64,000 bases of DNA from Balneolaceae bacterium (GTDB lineage: Bacteria; Bacteroidota; Rhodothermia; Balneolales; Balneolaceae), in the NCBI GenBank assembly GCA_017640665.1, contig JAEPQE010000002.1, positions 62,001 to 126,000 on the forward strand. The letters run 5' to 3'. The notes under the pieces were generated by a model, which was not told where the DNA came from, did no database searches, and was given only the letters and a program-made list of their open reading frames with translations. Positions 53,220 to 62,234 of the stretch are shown here, one piece after another. The position numbers were made by a program, and so were the translations under genes. Positions within the stretch are counted from its first letter, which is position 1. The number at the start of each line of letters is the position of its first letter.

Positions 53220-54170
53220 CTATGCTAGTAAAGCCGCTACACAGCTTGTGTTTACAATGTCTTCCCAGCTGCATCCCCGGGATAAATCCATCATTGGTTT
53301 TACAAGACCTTGAATTACCGGGCCGGTTGCTGTTGCTCCCGCAAGCCGTTCAGTGATTTTGTACCCGATGTTTCCGGCGTCCAGGTTCGGGAAGATAAAC
53401 ACATTCGCATTTCCTGCAACTTCTGAACCAGGAGCTTTTCGTTTACCAATAGAATCGATCATAGCTGCATCAAACTGAAGTGTACCATCAATTTTGAGAA
53501 GCGGGTCTTGTTTTTTTGCCAATTCCAAGGCTTCTTCAACCAGATCAACACGCTCGTGCCGCGCGCTTCCCCTTGTCGAAAAAGAAAGCATCGCTACTTT
53601 AGGTTCTTCTGCGGTTAAAGCTTTATGTGAAGCTGCTGAGTCAACTGCAATTATTGCCAGTTGTTCAGCCGTTGGATACGGAACTACCGCACAATCACCA
53701 TAAGAGAATGCTCGACCGTCTTCAAAACTCATCAAAAAGATGCTGGATACTACATTCGAGCCAGGCTTTAACCCAATAGTTTGAATAGCTGCCCTGAGAA
53801 CATCCCCAGTAGTAGAAACTGAGCCGGCTACACAACCATCTGCATCTCCTTCACTAACCATAGAGGCGGAATAAAACAGAGGATCCTGCACTATGGTCAT
53901 TGCCTGTTCTTGGGTAATTCCTTTATGTTTTCTTTTCTCGAAAAAAGAAGCAGCATACTTTTCGAGTTTCTTGTTAGAGGTTGAATCAATAATCTCAATT
54001 TCTTTATTGACCTCTGGTGCCTTCTCATTTTTAATGAGCACTACCCTGCAGATATTTTCTTTCGATAGAAACTCAGCTGCTTTAATAACCCGTTCGTCTG
54101 ATGATCTTGGAAGTACGATTGTCTTTTTAAGTGATGCCGCTTTTTCTCGTATCTCTTCAATTATTTTCAT
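53220..54170 (-). CDS. pta: Phosphate acetyltransferase (short form)
   Basis: 316 residues, PTA_PTB domain only: LPRSSDERVIKAAEFL, VSEGDADGCVAGSVSTTGDVLRA, SSIFLMSFEDG, MLSFSTRGSARHERVD, GELQFDAA-like DGTLQFDAAMIDSI, GNANVFIFPNLDAGNIGYK, LSRGCSWEDIVN. It converts acetyl-CoA to acetyl-phosphate, the partner of AckA. It is the last gene of the greA-to-pta run, separated from ackA by two unrelated genes. Confidence 0.93.
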   Translation of the reverse strand: MKIIEEIREKAASLKKTIVLPRSSDERVIKAAEFLSKENICRVVLIKNEKAPEVNKEIEIIDSTSNKKLEKYAASFFEKRKHKGITQEQAMTIVQDPLFYSASMVSEGDADGCVAGSVSTTGDVLRAAIQTIGLKPGSNVVSSIFLMSFEDGRAFSYGDCAVVPYPTAEQLAIIAVDSAASHKALTAEEPKVAMLSFSTRGSARHERVDLVEEALELAKKQDPLLKIDGTLQFDAAMIDSIGKRKAPGSEVAGNANVFIFPNLDAGNIGYKITERLAGATATGPVIQGLVKPMMDLSRGCSWEDIVNTSCVAALLA

Positions 54171-54174
54171 GTAT

Positions 54175-55026
54175 TTAAATCAGTATCAAAATCGAGGTTA
54201 ATGCAAGGATCAAGCCTGCTTTTTGTTTAGTTGAAAGTTTATCTTTCCAAACCACGAAGCCAATCAAAGCCCCTAGTATAACATTTGCCACATTTGTTAT
54301 AGAAAAAACAAGTGAGCCGAATATTTCGTGCAAGGCTAAAATTAAGAAAAAGGAAGAGTAAAGGTTAGCCACTCCAATAATTATTCCGTTAAGAATTTCT
54401 TTTCGCGAAAAACTTAGCTCTTTTTTATAAGCAAGTACCATCATTCCTAAAACAAAAGAAGAAAAGAATATCATCCCCAGAAAAGTGTATTCAGAAAGGA
54501 TTCCTGCAAATTCACTTTCAAAAACTTTAAGTGAAGTATCGGCTATACCTGTCATTACGAAAAGAAGTATCGGAAAGATAAAATCGACCGATACCTTTGA
54601 TTGATTCACTTTCAATTTAGGGAGCAGGAGATACAATGATATAAAGACAAGTACTATCCCGAAGTATTTAATCCCTGCAATTGATTCTCCATATATGAAT
54701 ATGCTGACGGCAATTGGGATTACCAGCGACATTCGCATGGCAGCGATACTGATTCCCATCCCTATTTTATTTAATGAAGCACTGTAAAGGAAAAGGTTTG
54801 CTATGAATACAACTCCCAAAAAAATGGCCAGTATTAAAACCTGAGGTGGAAGTTCAGGTACGTTTACAAGAGGATCATCAGTAATAAAAAAACTAATACA
54901 GGCTGCAACTAAATAATTGATACAAAGAACATTTAAAACCCTGCTCTTTGACTGTTCTGCTACTTTGAGGAAATGTGCGATAGTAAGCGAACACCCTACG
55001 CTAAGAGAAATATAAAGTATACCCAT
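54175..55026 (-). CDS. EamA/DMT-family transporter
   Basis: 283 residues, about ten hydrophobic helices in two EamA-like halves (for example ISIAAMRMSLVIPIAVSIFIYGE and VFSITNVANVILGALIGFVVWKD). The short loop with Gly-Glu after helix 4 is typical. Substrate unknown. Its ATG overlaps the upstream stop as TGATG, and the pta ATG lies five bases after its stop. Confidence 0.8.
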   Translation of the reverse strand: MGILYISLSVGCSLTIAHFLKVAEQSKSRVLNVLCINYLVAACISFFITDDPLVNVPELPPQVLILAIFLGVVFIANLFLYSASLNKIGMGISIAAMRMSLVIPIAVSIFIYGESIAGIKYFGIVLVFISLYLLLPKLKVNQSKVSVDFIFPILLFVMTGIADTSLKVFESEFAGILSEYTFLGMIFFSSFVLGMMVLAYKKELSFSRKEILNGIIIGVANLYSSFFLILALHEIFGSLVFSITNVANVILGALIGFVVWKDKLSTKQKAGLILALTSILILI

Positions 55027-56738
55027 CAGTCGATTAGACTAATACCTGTATACCCGAAATAAATGACATTCTGAGGACGGTTATGAAGCCTTCGGGAGGT
55101 GTAATCAACATTGCGTTGCAGGTGGTTAATAATACCGGAAACTGTTCCTTCACGGTTTTTAATCGCATCTGCAATGTAGTAGGTGAAAATGCTGTGTCGT
55201 TTCTGATCTCCGTTAGCCACCGAAAAGTCTCTGGAACGTTGATTTTCGGTAGCTCCAAAAATGATTATTGAGTCGCTGTTATTATCTGTTACAACCTTCG
55301 CTAATGATTCATTGAGTCCGCTGCGCTCATTTTCTGAGTTAATGTAATCCAGGTCGTTTATCACTACAATTTCTTCAACGGGTAATCCTGATAATCCCCT
55401 TAGTAAAGAATTGAGATTTATATTTTGGTAGCGGTTTGGCTCAGTTGAAATAACCTCTGTATCTCCCCTTTCATTTCCCACGGCATATCCTGAGACATAT
55501 ACAATTAATCGTTTTTGTGGGCGGCGGAGTTTATTTGCAAAGCGGCCGTATGCCAGACTTAATCTTTGCTGAGAATCGATATTTATCGCTTTATCAATAT
55601 TCTCTTGCGGAATTCCTAAAGCATTTTGAAAGTACTCTTCCATCAATCGGAGATCCCGTTCCGCATACGTTCTCTCTGAGTAACCGCCCTGATACTGCCC
55701 GTTCGATAGCATGAAAACAAAAGTGCTGTCGTTATTTGTTCGAAGTGCAGGGATATTGTTTTCAACATCTACATTACCAAATGGGATATTGGGAATCGCA
55801 ATAATAGAAAGCTGAGAAGCAAATTCTGAGGGTCTCCAGATTGGATACGCATCCGTTTTAGAAATCCAGGTTTCAGAAATACCGTAAAGCACCTTATACC
55901 AAAGACTGTCTTCTTCAACCAGTTTCATTTGGCTACCAAAGGCCAGATCGGTAAGAATGTTTCGTGAGTTCAATTCAGGTTCATCCCTAAGCGCTGTTAC
56001 CTGAGTAGAAACCACTGCAAAACTTTCAAAGATATTCTTTAACAGAATTATCTCTGTATACGTTTTATTGTTGAAATTCACCTCCAGCTCAATGGCGTCG
56101 CTACTATCGTATTCAAAAACTTCCGGGTTTAAATCTTCAATCAAGTTGATGGAATAGGTAGAATTTTCCGGTTGTATTTCTTTTTCACCAATAATGATAT
56201 CACCTTTGTGGAATATGGAATAAGTTGCTCTGGAATCCGATTCAGGTGAAACGGTAATAATTTCTGTCTCCTCTATACTACCGGTTTTACGGAGTAGCCT
56301 GCTCTCCCCAGTGGGAGTAGCTTCTCCAATTGGTTTCATATTCAGGAAAGAACTAAGGGTAATAAAGCCAGCTGTACCAAAAAGAATATTCTGACTAATG
56401 TTGTTATCGGTAACCGTTAGTGCAGAGGTAGTAGCTATACCCGCGCCTGCTAATCCTAATAAAACCGATTTCCAAGTTGGTCGGTACTGTTGAATATAAC
56501 GATCTGTTTTTACTCGTTGGGCGTACTCGAAGGTGTTTTCAGCTTTGAGTTGATAAGTTACAATCGGTGAGTTAGGATTTGTGGTTCCAACTCGTTCAAG
56601 AAATCTTTCTGAACTCAGTAATTCAAAATCGTTCAAATCTGTTTCATATTGATTTTCAACTACCCATTTCGAACTTGAACATGCCGAGCTGATGAGTAGC
56701 AGAAATAATATCAAGGATTTAGTAACGAATAATTTCAT
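55026..56738 (-). CDS. Caspase-fold (C14-like) lipoprotein with SH3-type domain, catalytic dyad apparently lost
   Basis: 570 residues with a lipobox signal (MKLFVTKSLILFLLLISSAC). A middle SH3b-like region (about 245-300) contains VSTQVTALRDEP and LWYKVLYGISETWIS. The C-terminal 270 residues match the caspase/metacaspase pattern: LSIIAIPNIPFGNV, AERDLRLMEEYFQNALGIP, KRLIVYVSGYAV, VEEIVVINDLDYI, SIIIFGATENQRS and SIFTYYIADAI. Where active enzymes have GHG and DxCxS-type motifs, this has SGYAV (about residue 415) and NDLDYI (about 455), so both His and Cys seem absent. A binding or regulatory role is inferred. It is coupled to ackA (TAATG) and to the EamA gene (TGATG). Confidence 0.72.
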   Translation of the reverse strand: MKLFVTKSLILFLLLISSACSSSKWVVENQYETDLNDFELLSSERFLERVGTTNPNSPIVTYQLKAENTFEYAQRVKTDRYIQQYRPTWKSVLLGLAGAGIATTSALTVTDNNISQNILFGTAGFITLSSFLNMKPIGEATPTGESRLLRKTGSIEETEIITVSPESDSRATYSIFHKGDIIIGEKEIQPENSTYSINLIEDLNPEVFEYDSSDAIELEVNFNNKTYTEIILLKNIFESFAVVSTQVTALRDEPELNSRNILTDLAFGSQMKLVEEDSLWYKVLYGISETWISKTDAYPIWRPSEFASQLSIIAIPNIPFGNVDVENNIPALRTNNDSTFVFMLSNGQYQGGYSERTYAERDLRLMEEYFQNALGIPQENIDKAINIDSQQRLSLAYGRFANKLRRPQKRLIVYVSGYAVGNERGDTEVISTEPNRYQNINLNSLLRGLSGLPVEEIVVINDLDYINSENERSGLNESLAKVVTDNNSDSIIIFGATENQRSRDFSVANGDQKRHSIFTYYIADAIKNREGTVSGIINHLQRNVDYTSRRLHNRPQNVIYFGYTGISLID

Positions 56739-57955
56739 TAAGCCCAGGGAGTTTGTTTTGATGCGATAGCAATTTTTGCAGCGTCAATAGCTATTACTAA
56801 TTCTTCGTTCGTTGGGATAACGTAGACTTCGGTATTTGAGTCTTCGGAATGAATTTTTTGGTCATCAGGAAGATTATAATTCCTTATCGAATCAACTTTC
56901 ACACCCAAACCCTCCATTTCGGAAAGAATTTGTTCCCTGATTTTTGGAGCATTCTCCCCTATTCCTCCTGTAAAGATAATGGCATCTACTCCATTTAAAG
57001 CGGCGATATAAGATCCGATATACTTCTTCGCCCGGTAACAGAATACATCAATTGCTTCTTTACAGCGACGGTCTCCGTCCTCTGCTTCCTCAAGTAAATC
57101 ACGCATATCAGCAGCGTAACCACTTAACCCAAGTAATCCGCTATGTTTGTTTAAGAGTGCGTGAACATTAGCCAAAGATAATTCTTCTTTCTCGATGAGG
57201 TAGAATAAGATAGAAGGATCAATATCCCCACTTCGTGTTCCCATTACTAATCCTTCAAGTGGTGTAAAACCCATGCTCGTATCGTAAGAATCACCATCTT
57301 TAATAGCTGTAATTGAACCACCATTTCCCAAATGACAAGTGATAATCTTAGAACCTTCCTTAGGCTTTCCGGAAAGCTTGTAATACTGCCGACTTACATA
57401 ATAGTGGGAAGTCCCATGAAAACCATATTTCCTGATCTTATATCTTCTATAAAGTCGGTTCGGGATTCCATATAGATAAGCATGTTGAGGAATAGAATGG
57501 TGAAACGCTGTATCAAAAACAGCAACATGAGGTACATTTGGTAAATGCTTCTTAGCAGCTCTTATTCCTTGTAAATTCGGTGGATTGTGGAGAGGTGCAA
57601 TATCAAAAGCGTGTTCTATAGCTTCTTCTACATCTTCATCAATTAGAACAGAGTCTTTGAAGGTCTCTCCTCCATGTACTACCCGGTGACCAACGGCCTC
57701 GATTTCATCCAATGAATGCAAATAGCCGTTGTCGGCTTCAAGCAACAACTCCATGATCACTTTAAGTGCTACTGCATGGTTGTCTATAGCCATGGATTTC
57801 TTAACTGCTTTTTCGCCTTTGAACTCCTGCTTAATGATGGAAGTTACAGCACCAATTCTTTCCACTAAACCTTTACAAAGTGTTTTTTTCTTGTCAGAAT
57901 CAATGAGTTGATATTTGATGGATGAACTACCGCAATTTATTACAAGAATCTTCAT
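56738..57955 (-). CDS. ackA: Acetate kinase
   Basis: 405 residues with the family signatures VINCGSSSIKYQLID, VGHRVVHGGE, VFDTAFHHSIP, YGFHGTSHYYVS, ITCHLGNGGSITAIKDG, DTSMGFTPLEG, TRSGDIDPSI and FTGGIGENAP. It makes ATP from acetyl-phosphate (or the reverse). It follows the OMP gene by three bases, and a caspase-fold gene overlaps its stop. Confidence 0.96.
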   Translation of the reverse strand: MKILVINCGSSSIKYQLIDSDKKKTLCKGLVERIGAVTSIIKQEFKGEKAVKKSMAIDNHAVALKVIMELLLEADNGYLHSLDEIEAVGHRVVHGGETFKDSVLIDEDVEEAIEHAFDIAPLHNPPNLQGIRAAKKHLPNVPHVAVFDTAFHHSIPQHAYLYGIPNRLYRRYKIRKYGFHGTSHYYVSRQYYKLSGKPKEGSKIITCHLGNGGSITAIKDGDSYDTSMGFTPLEGLVMGTRSGDIDPSILFYLIEKEELSLANVHALLNKHSGLLGLSGYAADMRDLLEEAEDGDRRCKEAIDVFCYRAKKYIGSYIAALNGVDAIIFTGGIGENAPKIREQILSEMEGLGVKVDSIRNYNLPDDQKIHSEDSNTEVYVIPTNEELVIAIDAAKIAIASKQTPWA

Positions 57956-57958
57956 GAC

Positions 57959-59260
57959 TTAAAAAGAAATTATGGCTCCCAGCCCAATTAACTGACGAAA
58001 TGCAAAATTTGATTCAGAACCGGACGGATCCGATAACCAGAACGGGACATCATAACGAATAAAAAACCCCCGATCCTTACCTAAATAATCCGGAATGTTT
58101 ACAGAAAGTTGGAAACCTATTCCGGCATCCAATAAAAGAGTTCCTTCTGGAATATCAGATACTACAGGAGGCAGTATATCTGGAAAAGCAGCCTGGTCGG
58201 GATCCTGGATTACGGTGAAATCATTACCTATTCCTGCATCAGCAAATAAATATGTCCTTAACTCAGCTAAATCTCCAACGATTGCAACATTTTTAATGGC
58301 CTGATTTATTGGATTAGGAAACTCAATCTCAGTATTAAATGCCAACATCGACTTATAAAGAGGAAATAGAACTCTTACATCAGAATTTTTTACAGAATTA
58401 AGCATGTTAATATCTCTATTCAGATATCCCCTGAGGTTTGCACCTCCTCCAACCTGAAAACTTCCGGCTTCCAGCAAAGGCGTTGGAACAGTTCCTTTTG
58501 CCCTCGAAACTCCTTTATTTAGCCAGTCCTGAGGCGAGCTCATACTTGTCAAAAACAAGTATTCAGGTGCAGTTTTTTCGCTTGCAAGCCCACCAAAAAT
58601 TCGAAGCCTTAATTTAAATTTATCATTCAGTTCAATTTTCTGTAGTAGTTCTAAAGTTCCAACTGTAAAATTTTCAGTCTGGTTATCTATATCTTGATTG
58701 ATTGAAGCTCTCGCAAAAAACTGACCTATTTCTGGAGTAGCGCTCCATTTAAACTCAGCTCCAACTAATGACTTCCATTCACCCTGCCAGAGTATTTTAT
58801 AAGGTCGGTATTCAGAGTCAAACATCTTTTCTTTTGAGAAGAATACACTCAGTTCTCTGTAATTATATTCGTAAAAGCCAGACTGCCAACGCTTATTAAA
58901 CTGGATTCGATGTTGTGAATACCCTGTTCTAATACTACTTATTAGTTGGATGCTCCCTTCATTTCCATAATCCGAAAAAGCTTTGATAGGTTCTGTAAAG
59001 GAAAGAAAGTAGGAAACCGGAAGCTCAGGAAGCCAGGTGCCAATCCATATACCCGCATCTAATCTGTGTGGACCATCTTTAAAAGTCCCTTCCACTTCTC
59101 CTAATGTCCGAACTCCCACACGGATTCCATCTACATCATTGTACCAGAGATCCGGGGCAAAAGTAAATCGATAAGGATCATCCTGTGCAAATAAATCAAG
59201 GGTACTCATCCCCAATAAGAAAAAAAATAAACATGTTTTTAAGGGATGGAAATGCGCCAC
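57959..59260 (-). CDS. Outer-membrane beta-barrel protein (Omp85-like C-terminal barrel)
   Basis: 433 residues with a signal peptide (MAHFHPLKTCLFFFLLGMSTLDLFA then Q). A beta-rich body follows, including VGGGANLRGYL (VRGY/F-like motif of Omp85 barrels), SMLAFNTEIEFPN, FADAGIGNDF, LLDAGIGFQLSVNIP and FIRYDVPFWLSD, ending GLGAIISF. Similar barrels occur as the C-terminal halves of exported M1-peptidase-like proteins in Bacteroidota; here only the barrel is present. The start overlaps the nudix gene by 22 bases. Confidence 0.7.
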   Translation of the reverse strand: MAHFHPLKTCLFFFLLGMSTLDLFAQDDPYRFTFAPDLWYNDVDGIRVGVRTLGEVEGTFKDGPHRLDAGIWIGTWLPELPVSYFLSFTEPIKAFSDYGNEGSIQLISSIRTGYSQHRIQFNKRWQSGFYEYNYRELSVFFSKEKMFDSEYRPYKILWQGEWKSLVGAEFKWSATPEIGQFFARASINQDIDNQTENFTVGTLELLQKIELNDKFKLRLRIFGGLASEKTAPEYLFLTSMSSPQDWLNKGVSRAKGTVPTPLLEAGSFQVGGGANLRGYLNRDINMLNSVKNSDVRVLFPLYKSMLAFNTEIEFPNPINQAIKNVAIVGDLAELRTYLFADAGIGNDFTVIQDPDQAAFPDILPPVVSDIPEGTLLLDAGIGFQLSVNIPDYLGKDRGFFIRYDVPFWLSDPSGSESNFAFRQLIGLGAIISF

Positions 59261-61703: not shown

Positions 61704-62234
61704 ATGCACCGAAAACTAACTACCAAAGAAATACTGGAGGAAAATCTTGCTCAATCTCCTCCATCAGGATTAAGCGAGGTGAAGGTGATTCTCCACAACA
61801 TAAGAAGCCTTCATAATGTGGGTTCTACCTTCCGGTCATGTGATGCATTCGGCGTTTCCGAGCTTATATTATCGGGATATACCCCACGCCCACCCAGACC
61901 AGAGATTAACAAGACTGCGATTGGAGCAGAAGAATTTGTGAAATGGAGTAATTGGGATGATGTCTCAGAAATGTGTTCATCCTTTAAAAAAGAAGGATAT
62001 ACATTAGTTGGGTTAGAGCAAACCACAAATAGTATCCAGCTCCCCGATTTTGATGCAAAAGCTTACCCCAAACTCTGTTTAATTATGGGGAATGAGGTTA
62101 CAGGTATTGATGATGACATACTGCCCTTTATTGATGAGTTTATTTCTATTCCCCAGTTTGGTCAAAAACATTCACTTAATGTTTCAGTGGCTGCAGGAGT
62201 AATGCTCTATGCTTTGCTCGAAAAGCTGTGGTGA
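61704..62234 (+). CDS. TrmH/SpoU-family RNA methyltransferase
   Basis: 176 residues with the SPOUT trefoil-knot motifs: VKVILHNIRSLHNVGSTFRSCDAFGV (motif 1), LCLIMGNEVTGID (motif 2) and ISIPQFGQKHSLNVSVAAGVMLYAL (motif 3). It is likely a 2'-O-ribose methyltransferase on tRNA or rRNA; the single-domain form lacks an N-terminal extension. The AdoMet site is formed by the knot. It is divergent from the MFS gene. Confidence 0.92.
   Translation: MHRKLTTKEILEENLAQSPPSGLSEVKVILHNIRSLHNVGSTFRSCDAFGVSELILSGYTPRPPRPEINKTAIGAEEFVKWSNWDDVSEMCSSFKKEGYTLVGLEQTTNSIQLPDFDAKAYPKLCLIMGNEVTGIDDDILPFIDEFISIPQFGQKHSLNVSVAAGVMLYALLEKLW

Follow-up and report, generated by a model that had tools for sequence, protein, structure and literature searches.

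The 64,000-nucleotide window that we analyzed, positions 62,001 to 126,000 of contig JAEPQE010000002.1 from a Balneolaceae bacterium, encodes a protein with a caspase-type head in which alignment places other residues at both catalytic positions. The protein, which we call P0001, is probably anchored to the membrane by a lipid, and its orthologues occur across much of the order Balneolales in the same substituted form. Our preferred reading, to which we give better than even credence, is that P0001 is a lipoprotein whose caspase fold is catalytically dead and which serves as a binding scaffold tethered to the envelope. The features on which this reading is built are listed in Table 1.

Table 1. 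Features of the pseudo-caspase gene, its product and its neighbours, in window coordinates.
Feature	Position	Strand	Details
Pseudo-caspase lipoprotein gene (P0001)	55026–56738	-	570 aa, ATG start; Pfam PF00656
Signal peptide and lipobox-type Cys20, residues 1–20	56679–56738	-	Cys invariant, 42/42
Predicted stalk, residues 22–162	56253–56675	-	AlphaFold2, mean pLDDT ~89; conservation
SH3b domain, residues 236–303	55830–56033	-	VIA Z 10.6, rmsd 2.4, 65 residues, to 4r0k_B
Caspase-fold head, residues 333–570	55029–55742	-	PF00656; VIA Z 20.7 (caspases), 20.1 (metacaspase-4)
D362, probable second S1 pocket acid	55653–55655	-	D in 46/66 orthologues
Y418, catalytic-His position	55485–55487	-	Alignment, columns calibrated by intact relatives
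D462, Asp of DxC, probable S1 pocket acid	55353–55355	-	D 64/66, E 2/66
D464, catalytic-Cys position	55347–55349	-	Alignment, columns calibrated by intact relatives
ackA, upstream	56738–57955	-	One-base overlap, TAATG
EamA transporter, downstream	54175–55026	-	One-base overlap, TGATG
pta, next downstream	53220–54170	-	

Caspase fold and catalytic positions

The gene occupies exactly the interval proposed for it in the earlier note and is read from the minus strand; the first-frame plus-strand reading of the same interval contains many stops. The nearest named relative of P0001, also from a Balneolaceae genome, is 79% identical, in agreement with the Balneolota placement assumed in the earlier note. 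Over 550 codons this pair gives a pN of 0.135 against a pS of 0.803; the latter is saturated, and we claim no pN/pS ratio. The gene is under purifying selection. Drift or decay into a pseudogene was considered and rejected, since pN lies far below pS and none of the matches listed for the 58 relatives and for the class contains an inner stop.

Pfam Peptidase_C14 covers residues 344–556 of P0001 (E 9.2e-10; score 39 bits, cut-off 21.4); NCBIfam gave no match. An AlphaFold2 model was built from 42 orthologues (mean pLDDT 89.6, pTM 0.66). Foldseek matched this model to MALT1 at E 9.4e-11. With VIA-align, the head superposed on chain B of 3h11 (caspase-8:c-FLIPL) at Z 20.7 over 203 residues and 2.6 Å, on caspase-7 at the same Z score, and on metacaspase-4 at Z 20.1 over 213 residues and 2.7 Å. 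On the question of a p10 part, model residues 333–570 align with whole caspase chains. In sequence searches of the PDB, P0001 drew a threonine synthase at E 0.59, and the family profile found nothing up to E 1. Residues 333–570 are a caspase p20-type fold, placed by fold in the C14 family. The caspase fold proposed earlier from the letters is thus borne out by the Pfam match and by the overlay of the model on caspases and metacaspase-4, with Z near 20 over some 200 residues.

The catalytic positions were located in an alignment of 42 rows, drawn from the 43 matching genomes with the cut match of G042 excluded. In P0001, the GHG column holds SGYAV and the DxC column holds NDLDYI. Three relatives from the same bacterial family, L099, L100 and L101, calibrate these columns: they match the orthologue profile (E 3.5e-41, 2.5e-38 and 3.7e-38, respectively) and carry SGHG and DACFSG there. 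On this alignment, P0001 lacks the catalytic His-Cys dyad of an active Peptidase C14, with Y418 in place of the His and D464 in place of the Cys, as had been read before. The protein has a single Cys, the lipobox-type Cys20, which leaves it no alternative catalytic Cys; another Cys as nucleophile was accordingly rejected. Four of the 42 members have two Cys inside the caspase domain, none of them in the catalytic column.

Loss of the Cys is general among the orthologues fetched. None of 66 distinct orthologues has a Cys at the catalytic position, where the residues are D (49), E (8), S (4), Q (2), F (1), N (1) and M (1). The His position is more varied, with Y in 38, H in 14, F in 7, S in 3, and K, I, Q and D in one each; the 14 orthologues that retain His all belong to family f3, and all have D at 464. 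These 66 are distinct caspase regions from fetched loci, with identical regions and rows shorter than 180 residues excluded; a contig end truncates two of them (L108, L109). In the order as a whole, 105 genomes had a match. A quick maximum-likelihood tree, computed with the two dyad columns removed and without bootstrap, separates the 66 orthologues from six intact rows (SH-aLRT 96); on it the Cys state needs one change. The 14 His-keeping f3 rows form one group in this tree (support 90); many of its inner forks are uncertain, and the long branches of L045, L044, L037 and L077 leave details unsure. The simplest history would be that the Cys was lost once, in the ancestor, and the His outside f3.

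Anchor, stalk, SH3b domain and distribution

The membrane anchor named in the earlier note is predicted from the alignment: all 42 members have a hydrophobic signal followed by a lipobox-type Cys. The +2 residue after this Cys is S or T in 42/42, and the -3 residue is Leu in 13/42. P0001 is probably anchored to the membrane via a predicted lipid. As to which membrane, a Ser or Thr at +2 of a lipoprotein would, by the E. coli rule, suggest the outer one, whereas the helical hairpin described below would suggest the inner.

The predicted stalk consists of long strands at about residues 20–50, 59–87 and 134–162, with a helical hairpin (89–108/113–132) before the third strand. When the N-terminal part was modeled alone, the same elements were obtained (pLDDT 89.3, pTM 0.64). 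Three invariant residues, R80, Q83 and Y85, lie on the second strand, at the end nearest the hairpin. The hydropathy of the hairpin is moderate (mean 17-residue maxima of 1.48 and 1.41), so its insertion into the membrane is a prediction. No fold is claimed for the stalk: Foldseek gave low-probability matches only (0.04–0.18), to long-stranded pore proteins, and among the best 50 VIA rows no match spanning the stalk scored above Z 6.2. A membrane beta barrel formed by the stalk strands was considered but is unsupported, both strand faces being polar on average or near neutral.

In the model, a beta region lies between the stalk and the SH3b domain. The SH3-like domain recognized earlier is supported by the modeled fold, which matches 4r0k_B, a Bacteroides cell-wall peptidase; Pfam SH3_3 was found in 5/42 members, and no Pfam SH3 match was found in P0001 itself. 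A profile of residues 20–334 gave near full-length matches in 48 of 394 genomes searched across the phylum, every one of them from the order Balneolales; three further genomes matched only inside the SH3 part.

Among 58 relatives, 43 carry the pseudo-caspase, each in a single copy: 29/35 in f1, 1/1 in f2, 9/9 in f3, 4/4 in f5 and 0/9 in f4. Its absence from all nine f4 genomes indicates that the gene is dispensable in the order. Genome G004, in which the pseudo-caspase was not found, gave three other matches to PF00656. Across the class, matches came from 107 of 244 genomes, 105 of them in the order; the remaining two matches (G235, G237) are weak, cover the caspase domain only and have an intact dyad where it is readable. 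Two further origins were looked into and rejected: a PADLOC search of the pseudo-caspase gave no match up to E 1 for a defence origin, and tblastn against 50,697 phage records gave none at E 0.001 for a phage origin.

Likely function and its alternatives

Two acids of the putative substrate pocket bear on function. In the consulted part of PMC6426788, the pocket acids of trypanosome metacaspase 2 are Asp95 and Asp211, and published pseudo-orthocaspases are described as retaining both. Asp462 of P0001 probably corresponds to Asp211 and Asp362 probably to Asp95, the latter by its 'ND' motif; the match of D362 to the 'ND' Asp of metacaspase-9 runs through L100, an intact paralogue whose alignment to metacaspase-9 is weak (E 0.89). 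On that assignment, P0001 would have kept an acidic pocket but not the ability to cut, and the His-keepers of f3 would be without the first acid. D362 and H418 never occur together in the 66 orthologues: 46 have D362 without the His, 14 the His without D362, and 6 neither, a pattern that reflects few evolutionary events rather than 66 independent ones. By comparison, all 10 relatives whose intact dyad is fully readable have both the D362-equivalent acid and the His. With D362 missing in 20/66 orthologues, including all 14 His-keeping rows, D362-dependent binding of a basic peptide cannot be a family-wide property.

Much of the order has retained this dead form, which makes it probable that the protein binds rather than cuts. 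Most likely it serves as a tethered scaffold or receptor, with a head that grips a stretch of basic peptide; the ligand step is one that we infer. The lipid, and perhaps also the hairpin, would fix P0001 in the membrane facing the periplasm. The stalk would raise the head, placed at its far end, off the membrane, and the SH3b domain may touch the cell wall or a protein. The head pocket, with its two probable acids kept, could then hold on to a basic segment of a peptide or protein and leave it uncut; in active relatives the pocket acids hold an Arg or Lys side chain. The pseudo-enzyme proposed in the earlier note agrees well with the presence of Cys20 as the only Cys, the lack of a catalytic Cys in all 66 orthologues, the purifying selection and the intact fold. 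Its second element, that the protein binds partners, fares less clearly: retention of D362 and D462, both probable pocket acids, speaks for it, neither a ligand nor a partner was found, and binding is our inference.

The conservation pattern carries a point against any role centred on the head, since stalk, SH3b domain and linker are on average more conserved. Mean column information is 2.01 bits in the head, compared with 2.28 in the stalk with its hairpin, 2.33 in the SH3 domain and 2.41 in the linker; the beta region at 166–235 has 1.61. Of the 11 invariant residues, the stalk holds five (W25, R80, Q83, Y85, E145) and the head three (D462, R549, Q556). Together with the variable His column, where eight different residues occur, these figures would fit a purely structural head, an inert caspase-fold domain beside the stalk and SH3b domain whose old pocket has no ligand. 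Free drift, however, would hardly keep an acid at 462 in 66/66 orthologues and at the Cys position in 57/66, and we regard an inert head as unlikely, if the strongest competitor to a tethered binding scaffold.

A more far-reaching proposal joins the single ancestral Cys loss to an acidic D-x-D site rebuilt on a stalk that has no match in the rest of the phylum. The product would be an envelope receptor or a non-peptidase enzyme, widespread and in single copy, that reads a basic peptide or a metal; we hold this proposal to be a long shot. Taken by itself, a site rebuilt for other chemistry or for metal binding, via D462-x-D464 and, in f3, His418, draws on the acid at the Cys position in 57/66 orthologues, on D462 in 64/66 and on the D464 of all 14 His-keepers. 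Against it, His418 is missing in 52/66, residue 464 is S, Q, F, N or M in 9/66, and no further conserved set of catalytic or metal-ligand residues was identified, which leaves this rebuilding improbable.

c-FLIP regulates caspase-8 in trans, and P0001 might act in the same manner on an active caspase-like protease. C25 peptidases are caspase-related members of clan CD, and the single C25 match in the source genome would be a candidate partner; beyond the 58 relatives, a few carriers also own an intact C14 protein (G072, G074, G076). The source genome, however, has no other PF00656 match, and among the 43 carriers a further match was found in three (G020, G023, G025) and in none of the other 40. 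This search is not very sensitive, having recovered 17/43 of the pseudo-caspase orthologues themselves, so divergent C14 members may be missed. With so few further PF00656 matches, a c-FLIP-like role towards C14 enzymes is unlikely, and we consider trans-regulation in general very improbable.

Joint work with the operon neighbours in acetate metabolism or transport has a similarly slim chance. The one-base overlaps with ackA and the EamA gene that the earlier note had reported are confirmed; the translational coupling read from them would follow from the overlaps. The next gene upstream was ackA in 36 of 64 loci, an outer-membrane protein (OMP) gene in 19, nudix in 1 and another in 8; downstream, 63 loci had EamA next in 45 cases, pta in 10, manA in 2, sufB in 1 and another in 5. 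This count covers 66 loci, with sufficient sequence upstream in 64 and downstream in 63; genome duplicates, L031–L033, L046, L075–L098 and L099–L107 were excluded, and a gene more than 500 bases away was counted as 'other'. One of the 36 upstream ackA genes (L015) is a 75-residue remnant.

Presence and absence across the 58 genomes, some of which are incomplete, do not follow the pseudo-caspase. No ackA match was found in 12 of the 43 carriers, no pta match in 10 and no OMP match in 6, while 9, 10 and 9 of the 15 non-carriers have ackA, pta and OMP, respectively. An obligate operon partnership is rejected on these grounds for ackA, pta and OMP; for EamA it is weakened at the level of loci, EamA not being the next gene in 18/63. 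In two of six fetched f4 loci, L132 (8804–10954) and L134 (3489–5696), the OMP and EamA genes are adjacent and the pseudo-caspase is missing; in the other four EamA was not seen next to OMP. Presence/absence of ackA, pta and OMP and the variable neighbours thus give no support to any functional linkage with ackA and EamA that the earlier note may hint at. The linkage seems to reflect a conserved order of genes and not a shared role.

Several features of these neighbours were recorded alongside. The OMP gene of the window (57959–59260, minus strand) encodes a beta-barrel-looking protein by sequence reading and was matched in 46/58 relatives; it gave no Pfam match at E 0.01 and no NCBIfam match at E 0.1. 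In L015, positions 1139–1351, between the nudix and pseudo-caspase genes, encode 75 residues like the N-terminus of acetate kinase (37% identity), probably a gene remnant, and the corresponding genome (G033) has no acetate kinase match. On contig C28 of G053 (1294–2153), acetate kinase is found in two adjacent pieces in different frames, either a real break or an assembly error.

Finally, a peptidase active through other residues could call on the intact caspase fold, but with no Cys besides Cys20 in P0001 and a Ser at the Cys position in 4/66 orthologues, we give it next to no credence.

Relation to known pseudo-orthocaspases

A pseudo-orthocaspase is defined, in the part of PMC6426788 used here, by a p20 domain in which one or both dyad residues are substituted, and on its sequences the P0001 family falls within this definition. 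The main text of that survey contains no occurrence of the stem 'balneol'. Its consulted part counts 10 pseudo-forms among 1078 Bacteroidetes sequences and attributes 90% of pseudo-orthocaspases to Alphaproteobacteria and Cyanobacteria. Among titles and opening abstract lines of open-licence literature, we found no account of a Balneolales pseudo-caspase family.

The YS and YN pseudo-orthocaspases of PMC6426788, as that part describes them, share with P0001 the p20 fold, a Tyr at the His position, a replaced Cys and acids at the putative pocket positions. The Balneolales family differs from them in that the Cys is replaced by Asp or Glu (57/66) rather than by Ser or Asn, in its lipoprotein-type start, stalk and SH3b domain, and in belonging to an order of the Balneolota. 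Asp or Glu in place of the Cys is unusual by the count of an older survey, whose part seen here (PMC3501461) gives Ser and Tyr as the commonest replacements of Cys and His.

Closer at hand are the intact C14 proteins L100 and L101, which share with P0001 a head that is close by profile, a lipoprotein-like start and a similar C-terminal RRLHNR-Q stretch; they differ in their intact dyad (SGHG, DACFSG), and their profile match starts only at the caspase domain. L099 (2556–5135, plus strand), the best-scoring intact relative by the family profile, is 859 aa long and, by sequence reading, has propeller-like and CARDB-like repeats followed by an intact C14 head. L102 (4432–6402) and L104 (4009–6018), both of f20, read as intact-dyad C14 domains with PEGA-like repeats behind them and a hydrophobic hairpin at the C-terminus.

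Among more distant systems, MCA4 of Trypanosoma brucei is likewise a membrane-tethered metacaspase homologue and is called a pseudopeptidase in the consulted parts of PMC3499766 and PMC7475262; according to the same parts it is eukaryotic and acylated, with Ser in place of the Cys, and we imply no homology of anchor or function. SyOC of Synechocystis is also a pseudo-orthocaspase, and its knockout is more tolerant of oxidative stress, as given in the part of PMC7889975 drawn on here; it differs in being cyanobacterial.

The best reading is that the P0001 family adds a new lineage, with an architecture of its own, to the known pseudo-orthocaspases. It is an orthologous family of the Balneolales in which the dead form is the rule, the Cys is mostly replaced by an acid and the envelope architecture is distinct, and it offers a clean case for asking what role a caspase fold that is unable to cut may have.
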